From Allomuricauda sp. (GTDB taxonomy: Bacteria > Bacteroidota > Bacteroidia > Flavobacteriales > Flavobacteriaceae), in NCBI RefSeq assembly GCF_028280385.1, contig NZ_JANQLX010000001.1, positions 124,001-188,000 of the forward strand: DNA of 64,000 bases. The letters are read 5' to 3'. The position numbers and the translations under genes were made by a program. Numbering within the stretch: position 1 is the first letter of the stretch; each line of letters begins with the position of its first letter. Shown one piece after another: positions 30,162 to 58,294 of the stretch. The notes beneath the pieces are model-generated. The model made no database searches and was not told the origin of the DNA. It saw nothing but the letters and a program-made list of their open reading frames with translations.

Positions 30162-30182
30162 TTTTCGAAAAATCTACGTAAA
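30162..30182. promoter_or_regulatory. Composite LacI-type operator before the second susC
   Basis: The palindrome TTTTCGAAAA (30162-30171) is followed five bases later by CGTAAA. The same 21-bp layout, 18 bases identical, occurs before xylulokinase at 56628-56648. The CG centres are 11 bp apart in both places. Another TTTTCGTAAA lies at 30197-30206. Confidence 0.6.
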
Positions 30183-30209
30183 CGGTTAAGTTAAATTTTC
30201 GTAAATAAA

Positions 30210-30424: not shown

Positions 30425-33400
30425 ATGAGTACAAACTATGTTGTTCTTTTTTTCATGCTTCTACTCGCGGGAATGGGATTTGATGCCAATGCGCAGACCA
30501 TTACCGGAAATGTCTCGGACAGCGCCGGTCCCTTGGGGGGGGCAACTGTTGTTGAACAGGGGACGACCAATGGAACCCAAACAGATTTTGATGGAAATTT
30601 TACGATAACCATTTCTGATGCCAACGCTACTTTGGTATTCAGTTATATCGGTTATAATTCACAAACCGTTGCGCTAAACGGTAATACCAACGTCAATGTG
30701 GTTTTGACCGAAAGTGCCGAAACCTTGGATGAGGTGGTGGTACTCGGATACGGCCAAACCCAAAACAAACGACTGGTTACAACCGCAGTGGCAACGGTTA
30801 AAGCTGCCCAAATCAGGGAGTTGCCCATATCCCAGGCCGAGGCGGCCCTACAGGGCACCGTACCGGGAGTGGTGGTTCAACAAAACTCTGGTTCTCCGGG
30901 TTCCCCACAAACCGTTCGGGTGCGTGGAATAGGAACCTTGAACAATTCCAATCCACTGTACATCGTGGATGGAATCCAGGTTCCCAATCTAGGATTTCTG
31001 AATCCCAACGATATTGTTTCCCAGACCGTTCTTAAGGACGCCGCTTCCACGGCCATCTATGGATCACGAGGAGGCAACGGTGTAATTCTGGTGGAAACAC
31101 TGAAAGGCTCAAAACGTGCCATGAAACCGGAAATAAATATTAGAACTTCTTACGGTATCCAAAGTCTGGCCAACAAACCGGAATTGATGAACCGCGACCA
31201 ATATGTGCAATACTACAACGAAGGTGTGGCGGCGGTTGGTACACCGGCGGCTGGTTTTCGTGGAGCCTTTACTGATGCTGAGCGGGCCTTGCTACCCGAT
31301 ACGGATTGGTATGATGTACTATTTGATGATGCTCCGGTTCAGAACTATTATGGTTCCATAGTTGGAGGGTCGGAAAGTATCTCTTACTCCGCTTCCGGCG
31401 GTTATTTTGGTCAAGAAGGAATTTTGGGAGGCGAAGGGAAGGCCGAATTTAAAAGAAGAAATATTCGGGCCTCGTTGAGTGCGGATATTACCGATCGTAT
31501 CTCCTTCAGCGCTTCGGCCCAATATCAAAACCAGGACCGATTTGTGATTCCGCAGAACACAGGTGCGGCCGGAGTTGGTATCAGTAGTTTTATCAACGCC
31601 CTGCCTGCTATTTATGAACCCTTTGATGAGGATGGAAACTTTGCAAATCCTTTTTTGAACAATGGCGTTCCAACGGCCAACGGAGTTCCTTTGAATAGCC
31701 TTGGTGCAGTTCAGAATCCATTGTTTTCAATTGCGGCAACCAACAACCAGATAACCCAAAATGCAACAAATTTGAATGTTTCCCTGGATTATGATGTGTT
31801 GGACGACCTTACATTGCGGGGCTGGTACGGATCATTCCACAACTCCATTTTTAATAGAACTTTTACACCGTTGATTCAGCAACCCACCCAGGAGTATGAT
31901 ACTTCTACAGGGGTCTCTTATTCAGAGGTAAAGAGCACAGCCGAAAACAGGCAATGGGGAGGTACTGCAAAATACTCCTTTGACGAACTGTCCGGCACCA
32001 ACCACAATCTGAGCGCCTTGGTGGGCTACGAACTGGTAAAGAACAACTTTTTTGGTGGGGATTTGATCAATGATACCGGCGCTTTCTTTACCAACGATTT
32101 TGGTAGGGTAAATTTCGCATTGTCGGACAACATTACAGATGCCACGGTTACCCCAGGGGTGACCATCCAAAGATTCTTAGAATCTTTCTTTGGAAAAGTG
32201 GATTATAACTACAAGGAAAAATACTTGTTCAGTGCCGTTTTGAGAAGGGACAAATCCTCGAGCTTCGGTTCTGACAATAGAGTGGGGTGGTTCCCTGCTG
32301 TATCAGGGGGATGGGTAATTTCAGAGGAAGACTTCTTGAACAATTCAAACACCATTGACCTTCTTAAACTGCGTGCCGGCTGGGGAATTAGTGGAAATGA
32401 CCAATCCCTGGGCCCATTTGATTATTTGGCACAATTGACCACCCAAGCAGGCTATGCCGGGCAACCTGGTATTGCCCAAATCAGCTTGGCCAATCCGGCC
32501 TTGGGATGGGAAGAACTGACACAGTTCAATGTAGGTCTTGACATCAACGCCTTCAACAACAAATTAGGGGTTACCATTGATTACTATATCAAGGAAACCT
32601 CGGATATCCTTTTGGCCGCGACCACTCCTTTGACTTCTGGACTTAACCCCGCTTCGGAAAACACAGGAACCATAGAAAACAAAGGTTTCGAAATTTTGCT
32701 GTCCTATCGCGAAAGCTACGATAGCGGTTTTGGTTGGAATGTAGGTGCCAATCTTGGTTTTAACGATAATGAAGTGACCAGTCTAGGAGAAACTTCCTTT
32801 ATTAACAGTGCACAAATTCAACCTCAGTTCAACGACTTTGCCTCCCGATCTAGTGTTGGGAATGCAGTTGCCAGTTTTTACGGTTTCGTTGTGGAGGGTA
32901 GGGATGCCAATGGCAATCTAATTTTCGCAGATTTGGATGGAAGTGGAAACAACCAATTGGTTCCGGACAGTGGGGATAAAGCCATCATTGGAGACCCCAA
33001 TCCCGATGCCACTGTTGGTTTTAATCTGGGCTTGAATTACAAAGGCTTTGACTTTTCCGCATTCATGTCGGGAACTATAGGAAACGACATTTTGGATGCA
33101 ACCATCCGTTATGATGCCCTTGGCACAAACAGACCAGCATCTTATGTAACGGAACCCGGGGCACCTAGAAATGTTGTGGTGAGTACAGCAGGAAACGGAG
33201 AGAACCTAATCTCTGATTTCCATATAAAGGATGGCTCTTACCTAAAGCTCAAAAATGTAACGGTGGGCTATAACCTCCCTGATAGCGTGCTGGAAACCTT
33301 GGGGATGAAGGGACTTAGATTGTTTGTTTCGGGCCAAAACCTATTCGTAATAACCCAATACCCTGGTATTGATCCAGAAATTGGCCAGAACAATGTGAAC

Positions 33401-33481
33401 ACTTCCTTGAATATAGGTATCGATCAAGGATTCTTTCCGCAACCACGTCAGATTCTTCTAGGCGCCAGTATAAACTTTTAA
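30425..33481 (+). CDS. SusC-like TonB-dependent transporter of the xylan-type locus
   Basis: A 1018-residue outer-membrane transporter. It has a signal (MSTNYVVLFFMLLLAGMGFDANAQ), a carboxypeptidase-like domain (ITGNVSDSAGPLGGATV, GTQTDFDGNFTI), a TonB-box region LDEVVVLGYGQTQNKR, a plug (IRGIG-type VRVRGIGTLNNSNPLYIVDG) and a barrel ending in LLGASINF. The frame is open upstream to a TTG at 30350, but the promoter box and signal favour the ATG at 30425. It heads a PUL with GH16, GH43, GH26 and a beta-helix enzyme, so imported oligosaccharides probably contain xylose. Confidence 0.94.
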   Translation: MSTNYVVLFFMLLLAGMGFDANAQTITGNVSDSAGPLGGATVVEQGTTNGTQTDFDGNFTITISDANATLVFSYIGYNSQTVALNGNTNVNVVLTESAETLDEVVVLGYGQTQNKRLVTTAVATVKAAQIRELPISQAEAALQGTVPGVVVQQNSGSPGSPQTVRVRGIGTLNNSNPLYIVDGIQVPNLGFLNPNDIVSQTVLKDAASTAIYGSRGGNGVILVETLKGSKRAMKPEINIRTSYGIQSLANKPELMNRDQYVQYYNEGVAAVGTPAAGFRGAFTDAERALLPDTDWYDVLFDDAPVQNYYGSIVGGSESISYSASGGYFGQEGILGGEGKAEFKRRNIRASLSADITDRISFSASAQYQNQDRFVIPQNTGAAGVGISSFINALPAIYEPFDEDGNFANPFLNNGVPTANGVPLNSLGAVQNPLFSIAATNNQITQNATNLNVSLDYDVLDDLTLRGWYGSFHNSIFNRTFTPLIQQPTQEYDTSTGVSYSEVKSTAENRQWGGTAKYSFDELSGTNHNLSALVGYELVKNNFFGGDLINDTGAFFTNDFGRVNFALSDNITDATVTPGVTIQRFLESFFGKVDYNYKEKYLFSAVLRRDKSSSFGSDNRVGWFPAVSGGWVISEEDFLNNSNTIDLLKLRAGWGISGNDQSLGPFDYLAQLTTQAGYAGQPGIAQISLANPALGWEELTQFNVGLDINAFNNKLGVTIDYYIKETSDILLAATTPLTSGLNPASENTGTIENKGFEILLSYRESYDSGFGWNVGANLGFNDNEVTSLGETSFINSAQIQPQFNDFASRSSVGNAVASFYGFVVEGRDANGNLIFADLDGSGNNQLVPDSGDKAIIGDPNPDATVGFNLGLNYKGFDFSAFMSGTIGNDILDATIRYDALGTNRPASYVTEPGAPRNVVVSTAGNGENLISDFHIKDGSYLKLKNVTVGYNLPDSVLETLGMKGLRLFVSGQNLFVITQYPGIDPEIGQNNVNTSLNIGIDQGFFPQPRQILLGASINF

Positions 33482-33493
33482 TAAGCTCTGAAA

Positions 33494-35050
33494 ATGAAAG
33501 ACATAAATAAAACAATTCAGAAAATAATAAATACGTTGGCAATTGTGCTCTTGATATTGGGTACATCCTGCAGCGATATAGAGGACCTTCAACCTGCAAC
33601 ATCCATCTCTGTAGATACGGCTTTTGAAACGGAAAATGCGGTAATCTCAAGTCTAAATGCCGCTTATGATCCCTTACAATGGCAGCAGATTTTAGGAAAT
33701 CAGACCTTTCCCCTGATGTCCCAAGGGACTAGGGCAGATGATTGTCATTCGCAGTCCGCAAGTTTCTGGGCCATAGGTGCCCAATGGGACCAGTTTAGCA
33801 CCATCATTCCTTCCCTACCCGCAGTGGCCTCATTGTGGGCCAAATGGTACAGGGGGGTATCCCGCGCCAATTTCACCATTGAGTTGGCATCCAATTTTGA
33901 TAACTATGACACGCCCGGTCTGCAAGACCAAATTGTGGGAGAAGCCAGGTTTTTAAGAGGACTATATTATTTTGAATTGGTCAAACTTTGGGGTGGTGTG
34001 CCTCTGTTCGAGGAGGCGGTCACCTCAACGGACCAAGAGATATTTAAACCTAGGGCCTCAGCAGCGGAAGTATATGCTTTTATAGAAGCGGATTTACAGG
34101 CCGCGGCGGCAATCCTGCCTATAAAAGGTTCGGAAAGGGTTCAAGGTTCCGCTACCTCAGGAGCCGCTCTGGGCTTGTTGACCAAAGTATATCTATACCA
34201 AGAAAAATGGTCGGAAGCTGTAAATGCAGCAGAACAAGTAATGGCTCAAGGGGTTTATAGCTTGGAATCCGATTTTAGAAACAACTTTTTACAAACGACG
34301 GAATTTGGTCCTGAGTCCCTTTTTGAAATCAATTACCAAGATGGACTTTCCGCAACCGGACCGGGTGTGAACCAAGAAGGTTCTGCCATGTGGAGATGGT
34401 CGTTCCCATTTCTTTCAGGAACCTATCCTTCCTTTAATAACTTCATTCCGCGGCAGGATTTGGTGGACTTCTTTGATGATAGTGATCAACGGAAGGCAGC
34501 CACCTTTCTTTTGCCGGGCCAGGTATTGAACTCCCCTGGATTGGCAGCGCTGAACTTTGACCCGGTACCGGACAACTTTGGCTATGCCATTGGCGTAAAT
34601 ACAGGTGCCAAAAAGTACTTTTTGACCTTTGAAGAGGTGCAGGTGCTATTAGGACCTCCCAGTTCCCCACTCAATGAGAAGGTGCTTCGCTATGCAGATG
34701 TATTGTTGATGCATGCTGAAGCTTCCATCATGGGAGGTGGTGGAGACGGTGCTTCCTCTTTCCAACAAGTGCTGGACCGTGCCTATGGCCCCGGAAATGC
34801 AGCGGCACCTGCCTATACGGTTCAAGGAGTCCGCGATGAGCGAAGAAGGGAGCTGGCCACAGAAGGCTGGAACCGATTTACAGATTTGGTACGATGGGAT
34901 GCAGTTGATGGTGGGGGTGTTATTGCACCTGCTTTGGCTGCTGTTGGAAAAACGGATTTTTCCGCACCAAGGGACTTGTTGCTGCCCATTCCCCAACAAG
35001 AAATAGACACCTATCCAGCCGGGATGTTGGAGCAAAACCCTGGCTACTAA
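33494..35050 (+). CDS. SusD-like lipoprotein of the xylan-type locus
   Basis: A 518-residue SusD/RagB protein with lipobox TSC (LLILGTSC). Hallmarks are DIEDLQPATSISVDTAF, GEARFLRGLYYFELVKLWGGVPLFEE, RYADVLLMHAEASI, ERRRELATEGWNRFTDLVRW and the end MLEQNPGY. It starts 12 bases after susC. It should capture oligosaccharides on the surface and cap the SusC channel. Confidence 0.94.
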   Translation: MKDINKTIQKIINTLAIVLLILGTSCSDIEDLQPATSISVDTAFETENAVISSLNAAYDPLQWQQILGNQTFPLMSQGTRADDCHSQSASFWAIGAQWDQFSTIIPSLPAVASLWAKWYRGVSRANFTIELASNFDNYDTPGLQDQIVGEARFLRGLYYFELVKLWGGVPLFEEAVTSTDQEIFKPRASAAEVYAFIEADLQAAAAILPIKGSERVQGSATSGAALGLLTKVYLYQEKWSEAVNAAEQVMAQGVYSLESDFRNNFLQTTEFGPESLFEINYQDGLSATGPGVNQEGSAMWRWSFPFLSGTYPSFNNFIPRQDLVDFFDDSDQRKAATFLLPGQVLNSPGLAALNFDPVPDNFGYAIGVNTGAKKYFLTFEEVQVLLGPPSSPLNEKVLRYADVLLMHAEASIMGGGGDGASSFQQVLDRAYGPGNAAAPAYTVQGVRDERRRELATEGWNRFTDLVRWDAVDGGGVIAPALAAVGKTDFSAPRDLLLPIPQQEIDTYPAGMLEQNPGY

Positions 35051-35066
35051 TCCAAAAAATAGAACA

Positions 35067-36530
35067 ATGAAAAAAGTATACGGAATAAGAAAATCATCGC
35101 TTAGAATTGCGACTTTGACAATGGTCCTGGGATTTTTTGGAATGGTAGTTTCATGCGATGAGGAGAAGTATTTTGAGCAATTGAATTCAGTTATTGCTTC
35201 GTACAATGATGGTATCCAAAACTTGGATGAAGAAGGAATCGATTGTGGCGGTGGAAGTGGAGTCGTTTGTCCCTCTTGTACCGATGGCATTCAAAATCAA
35301 GGAGAAGAGGGAATCGATTGTGGTGGTCCATGCGAAATGTGTGTACCTACCCCACGCGCCGATGTTTTGGCCGGAGGTTCCCTTCCTTACTATTACACCT
35401 TTGAAGCCAATGACCCTGATTCAGGGAGAAACTTGGTTCCCTTGGCCCAAGCTAGTCAAGGGGTAACCTTCAACCTTGGCGCAGCGGACCCAGCTGGGAG
35501 TGACGAATTGGTAGGTTACATTTTAAGACCTCAGAATGGCCCATTCGGTGGATTTGAGGATTTTAAGTTTCAACCGCAAAGCACACCGATAGATTTTTCT
35601 ACCTACAACAAATTCACATTGGATGTCTACATTCCATCCAGCAACGATTTTTCTGGTAACCTTCAGCCCTTGGTGGAAGTGGTATTGCATGATAATGTGG
35701 ATGGCAATTTCTGGCAACGCTGGACCATTCTCCCGATAACGGTAGATCCTGCAGACTTTGATTCCTGGGTTACCTTGCGCTTTGATGGCACTGCTGCCAC
35801 AGCAGTATCCGCCGATGCCGGGGTTCCACTCGTGGACAATACCACCTATGATAACATTACATTGCGATTTGGTGGTAGCGCTCATACCGAACAAGGAGAG
35901 TTTTATATCAAGGATTTTAAGCCTACTACAAGTTTTATCGCTCCGGGAACACCGCGGGCGGATGCACTCGCTGGTTCCGGCCTTCCGGTGTACTATACTT
36001 TTGAAACTGGTGATGCGGACTCAGGAACCAACCTGATTCCGAATGATACCCCATCCCAAGGTGTTGTACCGGAATACAGGGTGGCAGACCCTGCGGGGAG
36101 CGATGCTGCGGTTACCTTGATCAACAGACCGGAAAATGGGCCTTTTGGAGGCTTTGAGGACTTTAAGTTTCAACCACAAGCTGAAACCATTGACTTTTCG
36201 GTGTACCATAAGTTTTATCTCGATGTTTACATTCCATCCACCAATGACTTTTCTGGACTCTTAGATCCAGTGGTGGAGTTAATACTGCACGACAATGTTG
36301 ATGGGAATTTCTGGCAAAGATGGACCGTGCTTACCGCAACGGTGGATCCAGCGGACTTTGATTCGTGGGTTACCCTTGAGTTTGATGGAACAAATGCAAC
36401 TTCGGCAGCAGATGGCACCACATTATTGATGAACAATACGACCTATGATAATTATACCCTTAGGTTTGGTGGTTCTGGTCATCCAGAGGCTGGACAGTTT
36501 TACGTGAAGGATTTTATTCCATTTGAATAA
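35067..36530 (+). CDS. Surface lipoprotein with two DCGG motifs and a duplicated beta domain
   Basis: A 487-residue lipoprotein (VVSC, Cys30) in the position of a surface glycan-binding protein. After the anchor come two cysteine-rich repeats, DGIQNLDEEGIDCGG (48-62) and DGIQNQGEEGIDCGG (73-87), then two similar domains of about 190 residues starting at PRADVLAGGSLPYYYTFE (97) and PRADALAGSGLPVYYTFE (about 295). Shared blocks are NGPFGGFEDFKFQPQ and HDNVDGNFWQRWT. They look like carbohydrate-binding beta-sandwiches, and no catalytic motif is seen. The duplication suggests avidity for a polymer. It starts 16 bases after susD. Confidence 0.8.
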   Translation: MKKVYGIRKSSLRIATLTMVLGFFGMVVSCDEEKYFEQLNSVIASYNDGIQNLDEEGIDCGGGSGVVCPSCTDGIQNQGEEGIDCGGPCEMCVPTPRADVLAGGSLPYYYTFEANDPDSGRNLVPLAQASQGVTFNLGAADPAGSDELVGYILRPQNGPFGGFEDFKFQPQSTPIDFSTYNKFTLDVYIPSSNDFSGNLQPLVEVVLHDNVDGNFWQRWTILPITVDPADFDSWVTLRFDGTAATAVSADAGVPLVDNTTYDNITLRFGGSAHTEQGEFYIKDFKPTTSFIAPGTPRADALAGSGLPVYYTFETGDADSGTNLIPNDTPSQGVVPEYRVADPAGSDAAVTLINRPENGPFGGFEDFKFQPQAETIDFSVYHKFYLDVYIPSTNDFSGLLDPVVELILHDNVDGNFWQRWTVLTATVDPADFDSWVTLEFDGTNATSAADGTTLLMNNTTYDNYTLRFGGSGHPEAGQFYVKDFIPFE

Positions 36531-36568
36531 AAACAGGATAGTTAAATAATTTCTGAATATCGGTTCTT

Positions 36569-36599
36569 GTGGGGGAGATGTAATCATACGCTCCCCTAC
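36569..36599 (+). terminator. Intercistronic hairpin between surface protein and GH16
   Basis: GTGGGGGAG (36569-36577) pairs with CTCCCCTAC (36591-36599): nine pairs, one of them a wobble, with a 13-base loop. No T tract follows. It lies 38 bases after the lipoprotein stop and 20 bases before the GH16 ATG. Confidence 0.45.
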
Positions 36600-36619
36600 T
36601 TGTACTAAAATTGTCTATA

Positions 36620-37627
36620 ATGCCGCTTAGTTTCAAGTATTTGGTTTTTATTTCGGCTTCAATTTTGATGCTGGTCTTGGCATGTTCATCCAATAGCGGT
36701 GACATGGACCCCTTAACGGACGATGACCCCACACCACAGGCCAGTTGTTCTGACGGAATTAGAAATGGGGATGAGGAAGGTGTTGACTGTGGAGGTTCCA
36801 ATTGCGCAGATTGCCCAACCACTTTGGTCATTCCCGACTCAGGCTACACCACACCAGAATCGTATGTAGGCTATAGTTTGGTTTGGTCCGATGAATTTGA
36901 CGGTGACAGTTTGGATACCGGTAAATGGGACTATCATTTGGGAACAGGATGCCCAAATCTATGTGGGTGGGGCAACAATGAGCTCCAGGCTTTTACGGAT
37001 AGATCCCAGAACCTATACTTTGCCGAGGGGAACTTGGTCATGGAAGCCCGTAGGGAGTTTATTTTCGGAAAGGAATATTCCTCAGCGAGGATCCATACCG
37101 ATGATTTGTTCGAATTTCAATATGGTAGGGTGGATATTCGTGCCAGTATGCCCTCCGCGGCCGGAACCTGGGTGGCGCTTTTTATGCTCAATAAAGAATA
37201 CACCATTGAAGACCCTGGTGCCTATTGGCCCAGTGGGGGCGAAATTGACATCATGGAATATCTGGGGGAGGACAGAAACGATATTTTGGGAACAGGGCAT
37301 TACGGAATCAATTTTCCGGCCAATCACCGGTTCAATTCGGTGCATTTTAGCGCTTTGGACGGCGACCCATTTGACGAGGTATATTATGTTTTTTCCATAA
37401 TTTGGGAAGAAGATAAGATTACCTGGTTGGTCAATGATGTTGAATATCACACCATGACTCCGGAAACCACCCAGGCCAATGGACAACCATATCCGTTTAA
37501 TGATCAATTTTATTTTGTTTTCGCTTTGTCCGTTGGGGGCAATCTACCTAATGTAAACCCTATACCATCCAATTTCCCTACCAATTTATTGGTGGACTAT
37601 GTACGGGTTTTTAAACCGAATGAATAA
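36620..37627 (+). CDS. GH16-family endo-beta-glycanase lipoprotein
   Basis: A 335-residue lipoprotein (VLAC, Cys22). One cysteine-rich motif, DGIRNGDEEGVDCGG (45-59), matches those in the preceding protein. The GH16 domain runs from about 85 to the end with LVWSDEFDGDSLDTGKW, GWGNNELQAFT and the catalytic GGEIDIMEYLG (Glu208, Asp210, Glu213). This is the beta-bulge type site of laminarinase-like GH16 enzymes, which cut beta-1,3 or mixed beta-1,3/1,4 glucans. Where laminarinases usually have a WPAIWM segment, this protein has AAGTWVALFMLNKEY, so specificity may differ. The ATG at 36620 is preferred to the TTG at 36611. Confidence 0.9.
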   Translation: MPLSFKYLVFISASILMLVLACSSNSGDMDPLTDDDPTPQASCSDGIRNGDEEGVDCGGSNCADCPTTLVIPDSGYTTPESYVGYSLVWSDEFDGDSLDTGKWDYHLGTGCPNLCGWGNNELQAFTDRSQNLYFAEGNLVMEARREFIFGKEYSSARIHTDDLFEFQYGRVDIRASMPSAAGTWVALFMLNKEYTIEDPGAYWPSGGEIDIMEYLGEDRNDILGTGHYGINFPANHRFNSVHFSALDGDPFDEVYYVFSIIWEEDKITWLVNDVEYHTMTPETTQANGQPYPFNDQFYFVFALSVGGNLPNVNPIPSNFPTNLLVDYVRVFKPNE

Positions 37628-37645
37628 AAAACTAACCTCCTGAAG

Positions 37646-39199
37646 ATGAACAGCACTTCAAAAAAAACATGGTTTATCGCCTTCGTGGTCTCATTGGGAG
37701 GTTTCCTATATGGTTTTGACGCAGCCATCATTTCTGGGGTCATGAACTATGTTACCCCTGAATTTGACTTAAGTACCCAAGAGCAGGGGTGGGTTCCCAG
37801 TTCGCCCTTATTTGCCGCTATGTTTGCTATGCTGGTCTCGGGTAGGGCCAGTGATGTTCTAGGCAGGAAAAAAATGTTGCTCATCATCGCATTTACCTAT
37901 GCGCTGTCAGCCTTGCTATCAGCTTATGCCACTGGTTTTCATATGCTCTGGATAGCCAGGATGATTGGAGGGGTCGCTTTTGGCGCAGCCTTGGTGATAG
38001 CACCAGTTTATATAGCTGAGGTTTCCACGGCAGAAGCACGGGGAAAGTTGGTCTCCATCCAACAATTAAATATTGTACTTGGATTTTTTGCGGCCTTTCT
38101 AAGCAATTATTACATCAATAATGCCTTTACATCCGGGGCTTCTTCCTTTTTGACCATAACCAATGTGTGGCGGTTCATGCTTGCAGTGGAACTGATACCT
38201 GCGGTACTGTACTTTATACTGCTGTTCTTTGTGCCCAAAAGTCCAAGATGGCTCTTCATCAAGGAAAGGGACAAGGAAGCAGAAAATGTCTTGGCCTCCA
38301 TTCATGGCCGGGAGAAAGCCTCAAAGTTAGCTTCCCACATAATCAAAAGTCTATCAGGAGCCAGAAAAAATAATGATAGAATCCGTTTAAAGGATTTGTT
38401 CAAAAAATCATTGCGTTATGTGATGGGAGTCGGAATCGGCTTGGCCATTTTGCAGCAGGTCACGGGTATCAATGCCGTCTACTATTACGCGACTTCCATT
38501 TTCAAACAGACAGGAATTGGGACCGACGCAGCTTTTGCATCCGGTATTTTACTTAGTCTTACCACCGTTCTCTTTACGTTCGTTGCCATCTTTTTGATTG
38601 ATAAAATGGGTAGAAGACCCTTGCTTTTGATAGGAGTAGGGGGGATTGCGCTGAGTATGATATTGTGCGGCTATGGATTTCAAAATGCTACATATTCTTT
38701 AGAAGCAACCACTATGGCCAACTTGGAGCCAGCTTTGCAGGATAAACTAGGTTCATTTACGTCAGAAGTTTTTGACGATGATGTGAGTTTTAAAAGGGAG
38801 ATGATTGCCATACTGGGATCTCAGGAATATGCTTCAAATGAAGGAGCGATTCTGGAGGCTGCCACCCATATGAATTCCACTTTGGTTTTGGTGGGCATCC
38901 TTGGATTTATTGCCTGTTTTGCCTTTTCCTTAGGTCCAGTGATGTGGGTCATGCTTTCCGAACTTTTTCCTAATCGTTATCGAGGTTTGGCCATAGGCTT
39001 TGTTGGATTCCTAAATGGACTGTCCAGTTGGTTGGTGACCCAGATTTTTCCCTGGGAACTGGCAAATTGGGGGAATGCGGTCACTTTTTATATCTATGGC
39101 GTAATCGCCCTCATCGGATTCTTTGCTTTTCTAAAAACACTTCCGGAGACCAAGGGAAAATCGCTTGAAGAACTTGAAAAAGATTTAATCAAACAATGA
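37646..39199 (+). CDS. Sugar MFS symporter (sugar-porter family, xylose/H+ type)
   Basis: A 517-residue, 12-helix sugar porter with GGFLYGFDAAIISGV in helix 1, GRKK after helix 2, PKSPRWL before the central loop, QQVTGINAVYYYATSIF in helix 7, GRRPLL and a final PETKGKSLEE. An extra segment of about 65 residues (ATYSLEATT to ILEAATHMNST) sits between helices 9 and 10, as in several Bacteroidota xylose/galactose symporters. It should bring monosaccharides or short oligomers into the cytoplasm for the next gene, whose ATG overlaps its stop by 4 bases (ATGA). Confidence 0.92.
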   Translation: MNSTSKKTWFIAFVVSLGGFLYGFDAAIISGVMNYVTPEFDLSTQEQGWVPSSPLFAAMFAMLVSGRASDVLGRKKMLLIIAFTYALSALLSAYATGFHMLWIARMIGGVAFGAALVIAPVYIAEVSTAEARGKLVSIQQLNIVLGFFAAFLSNYYINNAFTSGASSFLTITNVWRFMLAVELIPAVLYFILLFFVPKSPRWLFIKERDKEAENVLASIHGREKASKLASHIIKSLSGARKNNDRIRLKDLFKKSLRYVMGVGIGLAILQQVTGINAVYYYATSIFKQTGIGTDAAFASGILLSLTTVLFTFVAIFLIDKMGRRPLLLIGVGGIALSMILCGYGFQNATYSLEATTMANLEPALQDKLGSFTSEVFDDDVSFKREMIAILGSQEYASNEGAILEAATHMNSTLVLVGILGFIACFAFSLGPVMWVMLSELFPNRYRGLAIGFVGFLNGLSSWLVTQIFPWELANWGNAVTFYIYGVIALIGFFAFLKTLPETKGKSLEELEKDLIKQ

Positions 39200-40794
39200 A
39201 TTATATTCAAAATCCAATACTACGGGGATTTAACCCCGATCCATCCATTTGCCGGGTGGGCGACGATTATTTTATCGCCACCTCAACATTTGAATGGTTT
39301 CCTGGGGTACAGATACACCATTCCAAGGATTTGAAAAATTGGAAACTGATTGCAAGGCCCCTCAATAGAACCTCCCAGTTACATATGAAGGGCATTCCAG
39401 ATTCCTGTGGTGTTTGGGCACCCTGTCTAACTTATGACAAGGGCACATTCTACTTGGTCTACACCAATGTAAAGTCCTTTGACGGGGTTTGGAAGGACAC
39501 CCCCAACTATATGGTCACCACCACCGACATTTATGGTGACTGGAGCGAGCCTATTTATTTGTCCTCAAGGGGTTTTGACGGTTCCCTTTTTCACGATGGG
39601 GCCAAAAAATGGTATGTGAGCATGTTAGTGGACCACAGAAACGGAAGGTTTTTTGGGGGCATTGAGATGCAAGAATACGACCCCATCCAAAAGCAACTGG
39701 TGGGTGATGTCCACTATCTAACAGAAGGGACGGATTTGGGACTCACTGAAGGCCCCCATCTTTATAAACGGGATGGGTATTACTATATCGTATTGGCGGA
39801 AGGAGGTACGGAATATGGCCATGCCATGAGCATTGGTCGAAGTTCCTCCATTTTTGGACCTTATGAATTTCACCCCAAACATCCCTTTATTTCAGCTGCT
39901 GAAAGCGAGGACAACGCACTCCAGAAATCGGGTCATGGCGATTTGGTGGAAACCCAAAATGGGGATTGGTATGCTGTTTTTCTTGTAGGCCGACCATTGA
40001 GTCCAAGAGGAAATTGCACCTTAGGTCGGGAAACCGCTATTGAAGAGGTTATTTGGAAAGATGGTTGGCCTTGGCTCAAAGGAGGCGGACGTGTTCCCAG
40101 GGAGAGAATTCCCCAGCCAAATTTACCGGAGTATACATTTTCCCATAACGGCAGTATTGTCAATTTCGATGTTAATGCCATCCCCATTGAGTTCCAGTCA
40201 CTTCGGATTCCCATGACCGAGGATTGGTGCAGCTTAACGGCACGAAAGGGCTACTTGAGATTATATGGAAAGGAATCCCTGACTTCCCTTCACCAACAAA
40301 GTCTCTTGGCCAGAAGAATCCAAGACTTTCATGTGGTGGCAACAACCGAGGTGGAGTTCCAGCCCCAAAATCTGCACCATATGGCCGGGTTGGTGTTTTA
40401 TTACAATGCAGGACATTATCACTATGTATGCATCACCTCCAATTCAGATGGTTCCAAAAAGATGCTGAACGTCATTTCTTCCGATAACTACAAAATGAGC
40501 TTTCAAGAAGAACTTGCCGATATCACAGGTTTGGAGGCAGTTACCCTAAAAGGTGAAATGAATAGGGATGAGCTTCAATTTTCCTATAGCCCAGATGGTA
40601 AGAGTTTCAGTACGATTGGCAATACACTAGATGCCAGTATTCTATCCGATGATCACGTACGTGATGGAAGAAGTCGTTACCGACCTGCATTTACAGGAAG
40701 TTTTGTGGGAATCTGCTGCCAGGATTTAGCCATGAATGTTCATCATGCGGATTTTAAATGGTTCGATTATAAAGAAATCAAAAAACAATCATGA
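39196..40794 (+). CDS. GH43 beta-xylosidase-type glycosidase, cytoplasmic
   Basis: A 532-residue GH43 protein without a signal. The catalytic triad is visible: Asp15 in GFNPDPSICR (base), Asp128 in GFDGSLFHDG (pKa modulator) and Glu185 in TEGPHLYKRDGYYY (acid). The C-terminal half (about 320-530) is a beta-sandwich of the DUF1349/concanavalin type (MAGLVFYYNAGHYHYVCI) that in XynB3-like enzymes closes the active site. It most likely removes xylose from oligosaccharides after uptake. It is translationally coupled on both sides by 4-base overlaps. Confidence 0.93.
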   Translation: MNYIQNPILRGFNPDPSICRVGDDYFIATSTFEWFPGVQIHHSKDLKNWKLIARPLNRTSQLHMKGIPDSCGVWAPCLTYDKGTFYLVYTNVKSFDGVWKDTPNYMVTTTDIYGDWSEPIYLSSRGFDGSLFHDGAKKWYVSMLVDHRNGRFFGGIEMQEYDPIQKQLVGDVHYLTEGTDLGLTEGPHLYKRDGYYYIVLAEGGTEYGHAMSIGRSSSIFGPYEFHPKHPFISAAESEDNALQKSGHGDLVETQNGDWYAVFLVGRPLSPRGNCTLGRETAIEEVIWKDGWPWLKGGGRVPRERIPQPNLPEYTFSHNGSIVNFDVNAIPIEFQSLRIPMTEDWCSLTARKGYLRLYGKESLTSLHQQSLLARRIQDFHVVATTEVEFQPQNLHHMAGLVFYYNAGHYHYVCITSNSDGSKKMLNVISSDNYKMSFQEELADITGLEAVTLKGEMNRDELQFSYSPDGKSFSTIGNTLDASILSDDHVRDGRSRYRPAFTGSFVGICCQDLAMNVHHADFKWFDYKEIKKQS

Positions 40795-42686
40795 TCCATC
40801 AAATAACAAATAAGGTACTATACAGCTTGATTTCCATCATTATGGGTAGCATGGTGTTCCAGGCCCAGGGCCAGAAATCGTCCCAGGAATTTGACTGGGA
40901 CGGATACGGTGAATGGAAAAATAAAACCGAATATTCCAAGACCTATGTGGTAGACCAAAAACATCCCAATGCCTCCGATTCCAATGAGGGCAGTAGGGCA
41001 ATGCCATTCCTCACAATCAACAAGGCGGCTTCTGTGGTAAATGCAGGGGAAAGGGTTCTGGTCTATGGCGGGGTGTATAGAGAAACCATCAATCCGTTGC
41101 AAGGAGGCACCTCCAATTCCAATATGATTTCCTACGAAGTGGCTCCCGGTGAAAAGGTAGTGGTAAAAGGATCAAGGATTTTGGAAGCAGAATGGAAACA
41201 AAACAAGGTGTATACCGATGTGTTGGCAGACCCATCGCTACAATACACGTGGTCCAGAAGGATTTGGGTGACCACAGTTCCGGACAACTTTTTTGATTCC
41301 GATTACCAACCCTTCAAATTGCCGAATATCTTGCCCGAAGAACACGCATTGATGCCTTGGGCAAACTTGGTCAAGGAAATAGCTCCGTACACTTCCAGGC
41401 GATCATTGGTCTTTCAAAATGGAAAACGAATGACCCAATTAGAGGATTACGGTGATCTTGCCAAATTCCCCGGTTCCTTTTGGGTGGATGTGGATGGAAA
41501 AACATTGCACGTACATGGTTTTGATGGCAAAAACCCCAACACATCCTTAATAGAGATAGCCACCAAAAAACACTTGTTCAAACCCATTAAAGTAGGCTTA
41601 AATTACATTCAACTACGCGGGTTTACTTTTGAACATTGTGCCAATGGCTTTTTGCGCACCAGTACCGGTGCCGTGACGGCTTTGGGTGGACATCATTGGA
41701 TTATTGAAGACAATACCATACGGCAAATTAATTCTTCAGGATTGGAATTTGGCTATTTGGCCTACGAGGCTAATGACCCCAACCCTGAAAATGTGGAGAG
41801 GGACCGAAAAGATAGCCAGGGCTTTATGATCGTGCGCAATAATCATATACATGATTGTGGAACAGCAGGGATTCGGAGCTTTGTGGTAACGGATGGCCGT
41901 ATTAATAACAACCATATACATGATATTGGTTGGCAGGATGCTGAAAATTATTGGGAATGCTCAGGGATTAAAATGTTGGTCACCCACCGCACTTTGGTAA
42001 AGGGGAACCACATCCATAACATTCAAGGCGGAAATGGGATCTGGTTGGATTGGGACATTCGCTATTCCCGGGCCACCCAAAACATAATCCATGATGTACA
42101 GAACATTCAAGGGGGTATTTTCGTGGAAGCCAGTCATTATCCCAATCTGGTGGACAATAATTTTGTTTGGAACATTGACGGCAATGGAATTTATGCCAAC
42201 GATACCGATTACCTAATGGTATATCACAATCTGGTGGCCAACGTAAGTGGAAATGCAGTACATGCCATCGTGCAAACCGATCGCTACCAAAATGGAAGGA
42301 AACTTACTTCAGAAGAGAACCGGGTCTACAACAATATTTTTATTAACACAAAACCATTCCGGTTTAGTTCAGACAGTAATAGGGCAGATCATAATCTGTA
42401 CATCAGTAGTACAGAACCCAATTTTATTGACCCTGCAAATTTTGGAACCGACAAACTGGATGAAAACAGCATATTTAGCAGGATTGCCTTGGAATTTAAT
42501 CGTGATTCCCAATTCTTGTTTTGGGACCCTGCCAAAACCCCAGTTAAAGTTCCAGCGTTAAAGGAGGTTTCCCTGGACTTCCATAACAATCCAAGAAACG
42601 GGGAGACCTTACCGGGACCTTTTGAAAAATTCCATTCACAGGGAATTAGCTTAAACGAAAATCAATCACAAAAAATAAATCCATGA
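40791..42686 (+). CDS. Right-handed beta-helix protein, GH120-like putative beta-xylosidase
   Basis: A 631-residue exported protein (signal MIHQITNKVLYSLISIIMGSMVFQAQGQ). After KTYVVDQKHPNASDSNEGS, a start common to beta-helix hydrolases, it has repeated helix coils (NNHIHDCGTAGIRSF, NNNHIHDIG, KGNHIHNIQGGNGIW). The segment NGIWLDWD (Asp420, Asp422) followed by GGIFVEASHYPNLVDNN (Glu446) resembles the nucleophile and acid/base segments of GH120 beta-xylosidases as remembered. The distance is 24-26 residues. GH43 before it and GH26 after it, both overlapping by 4 bases, fit a xylan role. A PL6/PL-type beta-helix lyase is the alternative, but the typical lysine/arginine pair was not seen. Confidence 0.65.
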   Translation: MIHQITNKVLYSLISIIMGSMVFQAQGQKSSQEFDWDGYGEWKNKTEYSKTYVVDQKHPNASDSNEGSRAMPFLTINKAASVVNAGERVLVYGGVYRETINPLQGGTSNSNMISYEVAPGEKVVVKGSRILEAEWKQNKVYTDVLADPSLQYTWSRRIWVTTVPDNFFDSDYQPFKLPNILPEEHALMPWANLVKEIAPYTSRRSLVFQNGKRMTQLEDYGDLAKFPGSFWVDVDGKTLHVHGFDGKNPNTSLIEIATKKHLFKPIKVGLNYIQLRGFTFEHCANGFLRTSTGAVTALGGHHWIIEDNTIRQINSSGLEFGYLAYEANDPNPENVERDRKDSQGFMIVRNNHIHDCGTAGIRSFVVTDGRINNNHIHDIGWQDAENYWECSGIKMLVTHRTLVKGNHIHNIQGGNGIWLDWDIRYSRATQNIIHDVQNIQGGIFVEASHYPNLVDNNFVWNIDGNGIYANDTDYLMVYHNLVANVSGNAVHAIVQTDRYQNGRKLTSEENRVYNNIFINTKPFRFSSDSNRADHNLYISSTEPNFIDPANFGTDKLDENSIFSRIALEFNRDSQFLFWDPAKTPVKVPALKEVSLDFHNNPRNGETLPGPFEKFHSQGISLNENQSQKINP

Positions 42687-43810
42687 AAAAGGTAATCCTA
42701 TTGATCCTCGCCATTTTGGCATTTGGATGCAAGCAACAGTCAGCAGAGCAAAGTACTGCAGAGTCCGCCATAGAAGCGGTCCCAAAAAGAAAATTGGCAA
42801 AATTTGAACCTCAGGACGGGGAAGTTCTACTGTTCGTAGGGCAGGAATTGGAAGCTGTGGGAGGTTTGGAGGAATACAACGAAGGCTACCTTGATTATTT
42901 TGATAGACCTGCTGGTTGGACCACCTACTCCAACATCAATCCTGGTGAGACATCATTTGGGAGAACACAAGAAGGGCTGGATGGTCTTTTTGAAACCCAC
43001 GATTGGGGTGATAACGACTACAATGCCACCTTGCAGCACAATAGCCCCCAATATGAAATTATGGCCATGGCCATTGGGCTTCAATTTGTGAATCATGAGG
43101 AAAAAGTGGCGGATGGAACCCATGATGAATACATTAACAAGTTGGCCGATTTTCTATTGTCGCTTGGCAAAAGGCCCGTATTTCTAAGAATTGCCTACGA
43201 ATTTGATGGGGACCCTTGGAATCATTACGACCGTGAAGCCACCATCAAGGCCTATAAACGAATTGTGGATATGTTGAGGGCAAAGGGAGTGGAAAACACA
43301 GCTTATGTTTGGCAGTCCACTGGATTTATTTCCGGTCAGGAGCATTTGGAGGGCTGGTATCCTGGGGACGACTACGTGGATTGGTGCGGTGTTTCTTTTT
43401 TTAACAGATGGAAGGAAATTGAAATGTTCGAGTTTGCCCGTAAGAAGGGGAAACCTGTTTTTATTGCTGAAGCCACGCCCACAATTTCCGATTATGGGGG
43501 TAAATTATATGGACTCACCAAGGAAACCCAACTCGGAGACCCGGTTCAGGCAGAAGAAGCATGGCAAAAGTGGTTCATTCCATTTTTTAAGGCCATAGAT
43601 GACAATCCGGATGTGGTGAAGGCAGTACACTATATCAATTGTCATTGGGACTCCCATCCCATGTGGGTCAACAACCCAACATTTAAAGGAATAGACGCTC
43701 GGTTACATTTAAACGATTCCATTAGTTCAAGATGGAAGAAAATTACCTCCCAGCCAAAATATATTAAGTCATCACCGGACTTATACGACAAGCTATACAA
43801 TAACAACTAA
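42683..43810 (+). CDS. GH26-family endo-glycanase lipoprotein, beta-1,3-xylanase-like
   Basis: A 375-residue lipoprotein (AFGC, Cys16). The GH26 fold shows VFLRIAYEFDGDPWNHY with acid/base Glu173 and KPVFIAEATP with nucleophile Glu263. The substrate-side context RIAYEFD differs from the RPxHExxG of beta-mannanases and resembles marine beta-1,3-xylanases of this family (knowledge of the family; not verified by search). It should act at the surface on the polymer and feed SusCD. The ATG overlaps the preceding stop by 4 bases. Mannanase or mixed-linkage xylanase remain alternatives. Confidence 0.8.
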   Translation: MKKVILLILAILAFGCKQQSAEQSTAESAIEAVPKRKLAKFEPQDGEVLLFVGQELEAVGGLEEYNEGYLDYFDRPAGWTTYSNINPGETSFGRTQEGLDGLFETHDWGDNDYNATLQHNSPQYEIMAMAIGLQFVNHEEKVADGTHDEYINKLADFLLSLGKRPVFLRIAYEFDGDPWNHYDREATIKAYKRIVDMLRAKGVENTAYVWQSTGFISGQEHLEGWYPGDDYVDWCGVSFFNRWKEIEMFEFARKKGKPVFIAEATPTISDYGGKLYGLTKETQLGDPVQAEEAWQKWFIPFFKAIDDNPDVVKAVHYINCHWDSHPMWVNNPTFKGIDARLHLNDSISSRWKKITSQPKYIKSSPDLYDKLYNNN

Positions 43811-43811
43811 A

Positions 43812-44522
43812 ATGAGTTCCATGGATATGCAACAATTGGCCGAACAATTTTGGGAAGAAGGGTATATCGTGCTCGAAAACTTTTTTGGGCATGCATTGAT
43901 GGACGAGTACAACCAATTGATTCTAAAACATTATGGGGTCAATCCAGATTGGGAACATACGGATGAGTTTATCTCCAAGTCCGCGGTTGAAGTGATTCCA
44001 TGGTTCCCCTACCGCGAGAACAAACCCTATTTTGACGGAATAGATAAAAACAAAAAATTCAATGAAATCACAGATGCCATTCTTAAGGATGGATGGCAAA
44101 ACCTATACTGTATGATGATGTTTTCCAAAGCTGGGTCCAAGGGGCAGGCATGGCATCAAGATTGCCCGCCAGAGAATCCAAGGAAATTTAATCTCAACAG
44201 GTTGGTGTACACCCATGATATTACGGATGACACGGGTGGTGAAATTGTAGTGATGCCCCAAGCCCATAAAGCTGGGGTTCTTCCCGTTGGGAACCCCCAT
44301 GATGATTTAGAGGGCCAATTGGTATTTCAACCTAAAAAAGGCACGGTGATTTTTTTGCACGGTCACTGTTTCCATAAAGTGATGCCAGTGAAAAAAGATA
44401 GGATATCGTCCAATTTCAGGGCGGTTCCGTTGGGCACACCGGAAAATATAACCGATATATGTGTGTATCGGAACATGCGCTACCGGTTTTCTACGTCAGA
44501 GGTTGTTGAGGAGCGAAGCTAA
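43812..44522 (+). CDS. Phytanoyl-CoA dioxygenase (PhyH) family Fe(II)/2-oxoglutarate enzyme
   Basis: A 236-residue cytoplasmic protein with the facial triad of 2-oxoglutarate oxygenases: His115 and Asp117 in AWHQDCPP, and a distal His (185 or 188) in FLHGHCFHKV. Arg203 (SSNFRAV) is the likely 2-oxoglutarate anchor. The family hydroxylates or demethylates small molecules. It follows GH26 by one base and precedes an oxidoreductase, so the PUL may handle a modified sugar, for instance a methylated one (inference). Substrate cannot be read from the sequence. Confidence 0.82.
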   Translation: MSSMDMQQLAEQFWEEGYIVLENFFGHALMDEYNQLILKHYGVNPDWEHTDEFISKSAVEVIPWFPYRENKPYFDGIDKNKKFNEITDAILKDGWQNLYCMMMFSKAGSKGQAWHQDCPPENPRKFNLNRLVYTHDITDDTGGEIVVMPQAHKAGVLPVGNPHDDLEGQLVFQPKKGTVIFLHGHCFHKVMPVKKDRISSNFRAVPLGTPENITDICVYRNMRYRFSTSEVVEERS

Positions 44523-44530
44523 TTCTGGCC

Positions 44531-45517
44531 ATGAAGCATAAAATACGTTGGGGAATTGTGGGTTTGGGGAGAATCGCCAAACTATTTGCGGAAGACCTTA
44601 AGTTGGTACAAGGGGCAGAACTGGTGGCCGTGGCCTCTAAGAGCAAGGAAAGAGCTCAGGATTTTGCCCATGAATTTGGAGTAGAAAACTGCTATGATAA
44701 TTATGATAGCCTATTTAAGGATGATCAAGTGGATGTGGTATACGTGGCTACACTGCACCATACCCATGCACCCATAAGCATTGCGGCCATGAACTATGGC
44801 AAGCATGTACTTTGCGAGAAACCCGTTGCCATAAATGCCTTGGAAGCGCAGAAAATGGTAGAAGCTTCCAAGACGAACAAGGTATTTTTTATGGAGGCAT
44901 TTTGGACCCGGTTCAATCCATCCATTCGGAAAATCAAGGAATTGGTAGACAGTGGGGAACTGGGTAGATTGAGGTATATCAATGCGGAGTTTACGTTCTA
45001 TAAATTGGACGATGATGTACAGGCGCGCTCATTGAACGTGGACCTTGCGGGAGGTTCCCTGTTGGATATGGGGGTTTATCCCATTTTTTTGTCCTATCTT
45101 ATGTTGGGAAAGCCCCAGGAACTAGTGGCAAAATCAAAATTTTTCGATACGGGGGCGGAAATTCAGACTTCCATGATTTTTGATTACCCCAACGCCCAGG
45201 CGCTACTATATAGTGGTTTTGCCAACAATACAGATATGAAGGCCAAAATTGGCGGAGAGGAAGGTGAAATTTTTATCCATCCCAATTGGCATGAAACCCA
45301 AGGGTTCACCTTGGTTAAGGATGGGTGGAGTAAAGACTATGGATTGCCTACTATTGGAAAGGGATTTACACATGAGATCATGGAATGTCATACATGCATT
45401 TCACAAGGATTTTCCGAGAGCAAAATATGGAGTCATTCAGATTTATTATCACTCATGCAGCTCGTGGATTCCGTTAGGGAATCAGCTGGAATAAGATTTC
45501 CGTTCGAGCAAAATTGA
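44531..45517 (+). CDS. Gfo/Idh/MocA-family oxidoreductase (dihydrodiol/xylose dehydrogenase-like)
   Basis: A 328-residue NAD(P)-dependent sugar oxidoreductase: Rossmann loop GIVGLGRIAKLFAEDL, the family motif CEKPVAIN with the catalytic-site lysine, and MEAFWTRFNPSIRKIKELVDSGELG. The last segment is typical of the dimeric dihydrodiol dehydrogenase/D-xylose 1-dehydrogenase branch. In a xylose-linked cluster, oxidation of a pentose to its lactone is a sensible guess, and an SMP-30 lactonase is encoded 9 kb downstream. It lies 8 bases after the PhyH gene. Confidence 0.87.
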   Translation: MKHKIRWGIVGLGRIAKLFAEDLKLVQGAELVAVASKSKERAQDFAHEFGVENCYDNYDSLFKDDQVDVVYVATLHHTHAPISIAAMNYGKHVLCEKPVAINALEAQKMVEASKTNKVFFMEAFWTRFNPSIRKIKELVDSGELGRLRYINAEFTFYKLDDDVQARSLNVDLAGGSLLDMGVYPIFLSYLMLGKPQELVAKSKFFDTGAEIQTSMIFDYPNAQALLYSGFANNTDMKAKIGGEEGEIFIHPNWHETQGFTLVKDGWSKDYGLPTIGKGFTHEIMECHTCISQGFSESKIWSHSDLLSLMQLVDSVRESAGIRFPFEQN

Positions 45518-45521
45518 CGAC

Positions 45522-46544
45522 ATGTCCAAACTCACTTTAAAAGAAATAGCATCCTATTTTAGTGTATCCATTGCCACGGTTTCAAAGGCATTGAAGGACA
45601 GCCATGAGATAAGCACGGAGCTCAAGGACAAAATCAGGTTGTATGCCAAGGAAAATCATTACAGGCCCAATAAACTGGCGCTAAACCTTTTTAATAACAG
45701 CACCAAGACCATTGGCGTGGTTATCCCCAATATCTTGAACTACTTTTTTGTCCAAGTGCTCTACGGGATTGAAAAGGTGGCCAATGAAAAAGGATATAGC
45801 ATCATTACCTGTATCACCAATCAATCCTTGGAAAAGGAAACCAAAACCCTGGAATTACTGGGAGCCGGTTCAGTGGATGGTGTTATTATTTCCTCCGCAG
45901 CGGAAGAATCCCAATTGGAAGAACATGCGGAACATCTCAAGGAATTATCAGAAAACCAGATACCACTGGTGATGTTTGACAGGGTAACCGATTTAGTGGA
46001 ATGCGATAAGGTCATTGTGGATGACTTTGAGGCAGGGTACAAGGCCACAAAATTTTTTCTGGATACGGGCTGCAAAACCATTGCCATTGTCACGCCCATT
46101 GTGGACTCCGTTATAAGCCGACTTCGTATTGAAGGATACAAAAAGGCGCTACTGGAAAACGATTTGGAATATGACCCCCGTTTAGTGGTGGCCACGGATG
46201 ACAAGGAAGATTTGGACCTTACCCTGTCGCTTCTGCTCAATTACAGGAAAATTGAGGGCATTATGGTTCTCGATGAAATTACTGCGGTGAAGGTAATGAG
46301 CATTGTGAAATCCAGAGGGTACCATGTGCCCAATGATGTGTCCATTATTGGCTTTACCAATGGGGAACTTTCCAAGTATGTTACACCATCCATGACCATG
46401 GTGAGTCAGCATGGAAAATATATTGGGGAAACGGTTTCCCAAATTTTGATTGATCGCATTGAAAATGACAAATCGGACCGGGCATTTGAAACCAAAGTGG
46501 TAAAAACAAGTCTGGTGGTGCGAGATTCCACTATTAAGCTTTAA
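45522..46544 (+). CDS. LacI-family transcriptional regulator (xylan locus)
   Basis: A 340-residue LacI/GalR regulator. It has a helix-turn-helix LTLKEIASYFSVSIATVSKAL, hinge region HYRPNKLALNLF, and a periplasmic-binding-like effector domain (KTIGVVIPNILNYFF; IIGFTNGELSKYVTP). It is closely similar throughout to the regulator at 61291, sharing blocks such as DDFEAGYK and VSQHG, and the recognition helix differs little. It starts four bases after the oxidoreductase stop and closes the operon. It probably controls the TTTTCGAAAA-type site before susC. Confidence 0.92.
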   Translation: MSKLTLKEIASYFSVSIATVSKALKDSHEISTELKDKIRLYAKENHYRPNKLALNLFNNSTKTIGVVIPNILNYFFVQVLYGIEKVANEKGYSIITCITNQSLEKETKTLELLGAGSVDGVIISSAAEESQLEEHAEHLKELSENQIPLVMFDRVTDLVECDKVIVDDFEAGYKATKFFLDTGCKTIAIVTPIVDSVISRLRIEGYKKALLENDLEYDPRLVVATDDKEDLDLTLSLLLNYRKIEGIMVLDEITAVKVMSIVKSRGYHVPNDVSIIGFTNGELSKYVTPSMTMVSQHGKYIGETVSQILIDRIENDKSDRAFETKVVKTSLVVRDSTIKL

Positions 46545-58293: not shown

Positions 58294-58294
58294 A

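Follow-up and report, generated by a model that had tools for sequence, protein, structure and literature searches.

We propose that eleven genes at positions 30425-46544 of a 64,000-nucleotide stretch of the genome of Allomuricauda sp. (contig NZ_JANQLX010000001.1; this whole stretch is "the window" below) serve as a polysaccharide utilization locus whose target is beta-1,3-linked algal xylan, with siphonous green algae as the most likely source. The host is a marine flavobacterium of the Flagellimonas/Allomuricauda type with a genome of 4.12 Mb. We put the probability of this reading at roughly 0.7. There is good support for the class of substrate (a beta-1,3-containing algal xylan, as opposed to ordinary beta-1,4-xylan, to mannan, or to laminarin alone): the GH26 protein of the locus resembles beta-1,3-xylanases in sequence and in its structural model, the genome has no match to GH10 or GH11, the GH26 genes are joined to xylose genes in relatives, and an operator shared with the xylose operon is conserved. 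An initial annotation of the window had arrived at the same class of substrate and had also suggested that the genes could define a distinct xylan system. As written, that suggestion is not supported: beta-1,3-xylan loci with GH26, GH43, SusC/D, XylA, and XylB were already described in 2025 (main text of PMC12125979). The window's locus is a variant of this recently described system, and its least familiar parts are a PhyH-Gfo pair and the beta-1,3-glucan character of its front end, neither of which the initial annotation mentioned.

Layout of the locus

The eleven genes are all on the plus strand and form one tight operon, with intergenic gaps of -4 to 18 bp. The exception is the gap ahead of the GH16 gene, which is 80-92 bp depending on the choice of start codon. 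The order is SusC, SusD, a lipoprotein with two repeats, GH16, a symporter of the major facilitator superfamily (MFS), GH43, GH120, GH26, PhyH, Gfo/Idh, and LacI, with families named by using Pfam and NCBIfam. The initial annotation had the parts from SusC to GH26 in the right places; it did not name PhyH or Gfo/Idh, and it only implied the LacI gene (as a "paralogous regulator"). Judging by eye from their N termini, the GH16, GH26, and two-repeat proteins look like lipoproteins and the GH120 protein looks exported. The GH43 protein (in which no signal peptide was seen), PhyH, and Gfo look cytoplasmic.

The relatives discussed below are 41 other loci (68-89% identity) that came from a pattern scan of a collection of species genomes, in which the GH26 protein was the query. 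Two of these are from Cyclobacteriaceae (L020 and L033), and the others are from genera or bins titled Flavobacteriaceae.

The GH26 protein and the other xylan enzymes

Many characterized GH26 enzymes are mannanases. When the window's GH26 protein (42683-43810) was compared to the Protein Data Bank (PDB), the best match by sequence was 2ddx, the beta-1,3-xylanase of Vibrio AX-4 (E = 8.4e-39), ahead of AlXyn26A (7xjr; E = 5.1e-21), a lichenase (E = 7.6e-8), and then the Bacteroides mannanase 4zxo (E = 4e-4). Foldseek searches with a structural model (mean pLDDT of 83.4) put 2ddx and AlXyn26A first and second, which is the same order, and mannanases appeared at rank 11 and lower. In other words, xylanases outrank mannanases both by sequence and by fold. 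The residues that line up with the catalytic pair, E173 and E263, are both conserved in all 39 full-length relatives; this count leaves out L035 and L040, whose genes are in pieces. (In each of these two, GH26 is split into two separate open frames, so the gene looks interrupted.) The initial annotation described the active site as beta-1,3-xylanase-like. The protein is predicted to be an endo-xylanase that acts on beta-1,3-linked xylan.

The host genome has just one GH26 match. The initial annotation had noted that GH10 and GH11 xylanases were missing, and across the whole genome, we found no match to either family at E = 0.001; GH5, GH8, and GH30 were not part of this search. A search of the genome for GH53 also found none. 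Against plasmids, GH26 gave 8 weak partial matches.

The GH43 protein (39196-40794), which also has a GH43_C2 domain, is closest to beta-xylosidases (1yrz, E = 1.2e-172); its PDB matches are named beta-1,4-xylosidases. An alignment check showed its catalytic residues D15, D128, and E185 to be conserved in all 35 relatives compared. In Vibrio XY-214, the known beta-1,3-xylosidase is reported to belong to subfamily 11 of GH43 (PMC7142710). The best PDB match of the beta-helix protein (40791-42686), which is probably exported, is the GH120 xylosidase XylC (3vst, E = 1.2e-40). Its D420 and E446, which align with what we take to be the catalytic residues of XylC, are conserved in all 4 relatives compared (again by an alignment check). 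The model libraries that we searched contain no GH120 model. The symporter (37646-39199) is XylE-like and matches PF00083; it scores 302.8 bits against NF007484, which is below that model's cutoff of 608.

Two other kinds of GH26 proteins were seen in the collection. First, several loci encode large proteins (1085-1420 residues), each of which has a pair of GH26-like domains (L029:16128-20177, minus strand; also in L010, L013, L016, L017, L024, L028, and L041). The L029 protein, which is the only one that we scanned, ends with a type IX secretion tail. These proteins are likely the secreted main xylanases of Aquimarina. Second, a sister clade is formed by the GH26 proteins of L050 to L054, which are 46-50% identical to the window's. 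The fetched stretches around them showed none of the xylose, MFS, or GH43 genes of the window's kind.

The xylose operon and a shared operator

The initial annotation also described a xylose operon 10 kb further on, with a paralogous regulator and a shared operator. The operon, xylB-xylA-SSF-lacI, is indeed found at 56809-62331 on the plus strand, 10 kb downstream of the GH26 operon. It encodes the xylulokinase XylB (56809-58293; PF00370; TIGR01312 at 306.3 bits, below its cutoff of 380.25), the xylose isomerase XylA (58295-59620; TIGR02630 at 653.3 bits, above its cutoff of 533.25, with no Pfam match), a sodium/solute symporter (SSF; 59629-61245; PF00474 and TIGR00813), and a LacI-family regulator (61291-62331; PF00532 and PF00356). 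This regulator is 57.4% identical to the LacI-family regulator that ends the GH26 operon (45522-46544; PF00356 and PF13377), and the two are 63.3% identical over their first 60 residues.

An operator shared by the xylB and susC promoters is supported by comparing upstream sequences. A site of the form TTACGAAAACCTTTTCGAAAANTTTTCGTAA is common to the xylB promoters of six species, in which xylB is either the first gene of its operon or located behind an unrelated gene. This site was read by eye from the promoters and was then tested with a matrix that was built without the window. This 32-bp matrix was derived from the xylB promoters of four other species; L012 and L014 were excluded because their spacing is one base shorter, yet the matrix still detects their sites (24.0 and 26.9 bits). 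Within the window, the best site lies upstream of xylB (56617-56648, plus strand, 32.6 bits). The second-best distinct site, after both strands of the xylB site, is CTACGTAAACGGTTAAGTTAAATTTTCGTAAA at 30174-30205 (plus strand, 15.5 bits), which is 219-251 bp before susC. In 2000 resamples of the xylB upstream region, the best score was 18.3 bits.

In 4 of 4 relatives that were fetched for this purpose, the best site of the stretch is likewise upstream of susC, at a distance of about 210-275 bp; these sites are on one strand or the other and score 15.8 to 23.9 bits. An unrelated SusCD region from one of those relatives (L079) had nothing above 11.6 bits. The site was also present in 7 of the 12 xylB upstream stretches that we examined (the window, L009, L012, L014, L032, L034, and L036; the L068 stretch is the same sequence as that of L008). 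The stretches without it are from L006, L007, L008, and L031, in which xylB is inside an operon, and from L020 (Cyclobacteriaceae). Overall, there were 28 matrix matches of at least 15.5 bits in 2,725,624 positions, and 21 of these were, by their coordinates, upstream of xylB or susC, versus 7 elsewhere; the 21 include sites that were used to build the matrix or that come from one genome twice.

Two other features were seen in the window. A perfect 20-bp palindrome, ATAGATTACATGTAATCTAT, lies at 56651-56670, directly after the xylB site. The stem GGGAAACGGTTTCCC, at 46423-46442, falls within the final part of the first lacI gene and resembles the operator core.

Gene order in the relatives

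We counted the neighbors of GH26 within at most 10 kb on each side, so the counts are lower bounds. Across the 41 loci, MFS was found in 36, GH43 in 35, LacI in 30, Gfo in 28, PhyH in 27, and XylA in 22. The surface glycan-binding protein (SGBP), which is the lipoprotein with two repeats, was rarer (10 loci), as were GH16 (9) and GH120 (4). Two loci, L023 and L035, have none of MFS, GH43, XylA, or XylB in these flanks.

In 7 of the 41 loci (L006, L007, L008, L009, L012, L014, and L031), the genes for XylB, XylA, MFS, GH43, GH26, PhyH, Gfo, and LacI form a run on the same strand. The full order in L009 is XylB-XylA-SSF-MFS-GH43-GH120-GH26-PhyH-aldose epimerase-Gfo-LacI, and L012 has the same order without GH120. 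L007 includes front-end genes as well, in the order SusD-SGBP-GH16-XylB-XylA-MFS-GH43-GH26-PhyH-Gfo-LacI. The link between the GH26 genes and xylose metabolism is strong, because the operons are joined in these seven relatives and because the two best sites in the window for a motif derived from xylB are before xylB and susC. In three other genomes of the Flagellimonas type (L032, L034, and L036), the xylB-xylA-SSF-LacI operon has a GH26 gene of its own before LacI, which the window's copy does not. Cultured species such as F. hymeniacidonis and F. algicola also have the GH26 operon.

We also considered an even draw of 249 genomes from the family, including the window's. Members of the window's GH26 clade (identity of 72% or more) were present in 8 of these genomes and PhyH was present in 6; in five genomes, they were both present and adjacent (P = 4e-8, Fisher's exact test). 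This draw overlaps the 41 loci (seven of the fetched stretches have the same sequences as L005, L006, L008, L009, L015, L025, and L039) and is not independent evidence for gene order. Within the genus, GH26 was matched at an E value of 1e-100 or lower in 10 of 71 genomes, counting G253, whose only match belongs to a 49% clade.

A front end that resembles a beta-1,3-glucan system

The operon begins with a SusC-type TonB-dependent transporter (30425-33481; TIGR04056 at 801 bits; the open reading frame as listed starts at a TTG at 30350) and a SusD-type glycan-binding lipoprotein (33494-35050; PF14322 and PF07980). These are followed by SGBP (35067-36530) and by a GH16 lipoprotein of the laminarinase type (36611-37627; PF00722), which starts at TTG 36611 or at ATG about 36620. 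In character, this set of proteins is reminiscent of a system for beta-1,3-glucan.

SGBP belongs to no Pfam family, and its two beta-sandwich repeats are 69.1% identical over 191 aligned residues. In searches with a structural model, the best single-domain match of the repeat was the laminarin-binding carbohydrate-binding module (CBM) X584 (8qx6, TMt of 0.71, 21% identity), at rank 13 overall. The matches above it are longer multidomain chains, with reelin repeats first and with the tandem CBM22 of a xylanase among them. A search of the PDB with an SGBP profile found nothing at E = 0.01, so the similarity to a CBM comes from the structural model, which is moderately confident (pLDDT of 69.6). 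A literature search for X584 together with laminarin also found nothing.

The GH16 protein has an EIDIME active site, and its best PDB matches by sequence are the laminarinases 3azx and 4dfs. Its catalytic E, D, and E are kept in 9 of 9 relatives. Two other GH16 genes are found elsewhere in the host genome (L072 and L073, on contig C9), about 18 kb apart. One of them is near an MFS transporter and a propeller-type regulator, and the other is beside GH20.

Among the relatives, 14 of the 41 loci encode a protein of 440-453 residues after PhyH. The copy from L013, which was the one compared to the PDB, matches GH158 structures (9oro, E = 1.2e-71; 6pal, E = 5.8e-61), and the other 13 copies are 63-82% identical to it. 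Against NCBIfam, the L013 protein matched no GH158 model and had weak scores, under the cutoffs, for beta-glucuronidase and beta-galactosidase. GH16 and the GH158-like protein occur together only in L011, and 22 of the 41 loci carry one or the other. The literature found to combine GH158, xylan, and GH26 looks unrelated to this system.

A conserved PhyH-Gfo pair

After GH26, the operon encodes a PhyH-family Fe(II)/2-oxoglutarate oxygenase (43812-44522; PF05721) and a Gfo/Idh/MocA dehydrogenase that is similar to sugar dehydrogenases (44531-45517; PF01408). H115, D117, H183, H185, H188, and R197 of PhyH are invariant in 29 rows of the alignment, including the window's own. We take the HxD...H residues to be the metal site, and the pattern is as expected for an active oxygenase of this family. 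PhyH has a single, chance-level match in the PDB (E = 0.63), and the best PDB match of Gfo is dihydrodiol dehydrogenase (2o48). Of the 27 relatives with PhyH, 26 also have Gfo, which is not always adjacent. The two proteins probably modify a sugar in the cytoplasm. The chemistry might be the oxidative demethylation of an O-methylated sugar or the oxidation of xylose by Gfo. A literature search that combined phytanoyl-CoA dioxygenase, polysaccharide utilization, and xylan found nothing.

A more distant copy of PhyH (61%; L049:9310-10011, minus strand) is beside a 278-residue protein with a signal-like N terminus. No GH26, GH43, MFS, or xylose gene was found around it.

A proposed pathway

If the substrate is beta-1,3-linked algal xylan, then SGBP and SusD would hold the triple-helical beta-1,3 chain at the cell surface. 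There, the GH26 lipoprotein would cut the xylosyl stretches, and the GH16 lipoprotein would cut beta-1,3-glucosyl stretches or an accompanying beta-1,3-glucan. SusC would bring in the fragments, and the GH120 protein would trim the oligosaccharides in the periplasm. The MFS symporter would move short oligosaccharides or xylose into the cytoplasm, where GH43 would free the xylose, and XylA and XylB from the downstream operon would yield xylulose 5-phosphate. The two paralogous LacI proteins would act on one type of operator before susC and xylB. With one operator type at both promoters, the two operons should respond together, and the inducer is probably xylose or a xylooligosaccharide. In this scheme, the sequence shows the parts and their order, the shared operator and its occurrence in relatives, and the joined operons of relatives, and we infer the localization, the substrate, the linkage, which LacI protein binds the site, and the direction of regulation.

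A more specific and tentative idea is that these loci are a family dedicated to beta-1,3-glucoxylan, in which a glucanase is found beside a third clade of GH26 xylanases and PhyH and Gfo/Idh form an oxidative side branch. The glucose content of Caulerpa beta-1,3-xylan is reported to range from undetectable to about 10%, depending on the species, and enzymatic products from C. lentillifera show glucose within the beta-1,3-xylan chain (PMC13351767). The pairing of a beta-1,3-xylanase with a beta-1,3-glucanase in one locus fits such a polymer. The glucanase (GH16 here, and the GH158-like enzyme in Aquimarina, Tenacibaculum, and Tamlana) might cut at those glucose residues that, in some subsites, are an obstacle to beta-1,3-xylanases, and the side branch might handle an O-methylated or otherwise modified sugar.

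Several points weigh against the proposed pathway or its details. First, the GH26 protein is just 32.4% identical to a 279-residue fragment of Xyl4 and 35.3% identical to a fragment of AlXyn26A (235 aligned positions), and a tree places it in a well-supported group apart from both (these references are partial and have long branches). Given the low identities and the separate group, the sequence does not decide between beta-1,3 and mixed linkages. A published screen demanded over 35% identity to Vibrio Xyn26A or Xyn26B; the window's protein is below this for Xyl4, and Xyn26B is reported to be 95.6% similar to Xyl4 (PMC12125979). Second, GH120 and GH16 are found in few of the relatives (4 and 9 of 41). 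Third, the score of the susC site is modest on its own, as 12 of 2000 sequences resampled from its upstream region (order-1 Markov) reached it. Also, the sequence upstream of a more distant SusC (L042, 49% identical) had no site and reached only 5.6 bits. A simple LacI core pattern, AANCGNTT, was not enriched in 78 upstream stretches (6 seen versus 6.7 expected) and was dropped. Fourth, GH16 and SGBP could serve a plain, separate beta-1,3-glucan. Xyl4 is reported to tolerate glucose at several subsites and to cut beside it (PMC13351767), so a glucanase may be unnecessary, and a 2019 review terms the 1,3-xylans of green algae apparent homoxylans (PMC6419167), which also lessens the need for one.

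The strongest competitor, which we still consider unlikely, is that the locus targets the beta-1,3/1,4 mixed-linkage xylan of red algae, with GH26 acting like a mixed-linkage xylanase (MLXase) and with GH43 and GH120 removing beta-1,4- and beta-1,3-linked xylose. The identity to AlXyn26A, which is also the second fold match, would suit this, as would the names of the GH43 matches, and MLXases are reported to cleave beta-1,3 oligosaccharides as well (PMC12706835). The marks of an MLXase are an active site in the shape of a tunnel and beta-1,4 cleavage that follows a beta-1,3 linkage. However, the phmmer E value of GH26 is about 18 orders of magnitude better against Xyl4, and the front end appears to be built for beta-1,3 chains.

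We think it quite improbable that the front end (SusCD, SGBP, and GH16) is a system for laminarin or another beta-1,3-glucan that shares an operon with a xylooligosaccharide set by chance. The laminarinase matches of GH16 and the modeled similarity of the SGBP repeat to X584 are what this would predict, but the genes form a single operon with short gaps, susC and xylB have an operator type in common, GH16 recurs with SGBP near this GH26 in 9 of the 41 loci, and the genome has the two further GH16 genes elsewhere.

Finally, a beta-mannan locus with GH26 as the mannanase is very improbable, despite the frequency of mannanases in the family, given the far weaker match to 4zxo, the low fold ranks of mannanases, the xylosidases as neighbors, and the xylose genes in relatives. 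A Muricauda strain is reported to have a mannan locus (PMC9860051), which would suit this reading. The PDB matches of GH43 and GH120, which are xylosidases, count in favor of beta-1,3-linked algal xylan as the substrate.

Comparison with known systems

Two of the enzymes can be compared with characterized proteins. Like AlXyn26A, the window's GH26 has a GH26 fold and an aligned catalytic pair, but it is about 35% identical to the compared fragment and is separate in the tree. The GH120-type protein shares the beta helix and the positions of the catalytic Asp and Glu with XylC but is distant in sequence.

The front end is like the Bacteroides beta(1,3)-glucan loci, which, as described in PMC7157763, have SusC, SusD, a second SGBP that is divergent in sequence, and endo-glucanases that vary between species (GH16_3, GH158, or both). 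Unlike those loci, the window's operon continues with xylan enzymes and has LacI instead of a hybrid two-component regulator. No GH3 was found among its 11 genes. The beta-1,3-xylan system of Vibrio, as reported, is also unlike the window's locus: it relies on ABC import and on XylRA, whose DNA-binding domain is of the AraC type.

The window's locus is of the kind described in PMC12125979, which covers EA2 and a list of 47 strains, 38 of which are in Bacteroidota, including Flavobacteriaceae. LacI and MFS are among the variable parts of those loci. In the main text of that paper, the terms GH16, GH120, GH158, phytanoyl, and oxidoreductase do not occur, although the supplementary tables may list them. 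The window's locus shares GH26, a GH43 xylosidase, MFS, XylA, XylB, SusC/D (in Bacteroidota), and LacI among the regulators with those loci. As far as that text describes them, it differs in its separate GH26 clade, in having GH16 and GH120, in the PhyH-Gfo pair, and in having a separate xylose operon with a shared operator. A small regulon for xylan and xylose is defined by the operator that the two promoters share, and PhyH with Gfo makes up a conserved step. Direct candidate enzymes come from the loci in which a beta-1,3-xylanase is coupled to a beta-1,3-glucanase of either of two unrelated families. Relative to the system already described, these added parts point to a glucose-containing xylan and an oxidation step.

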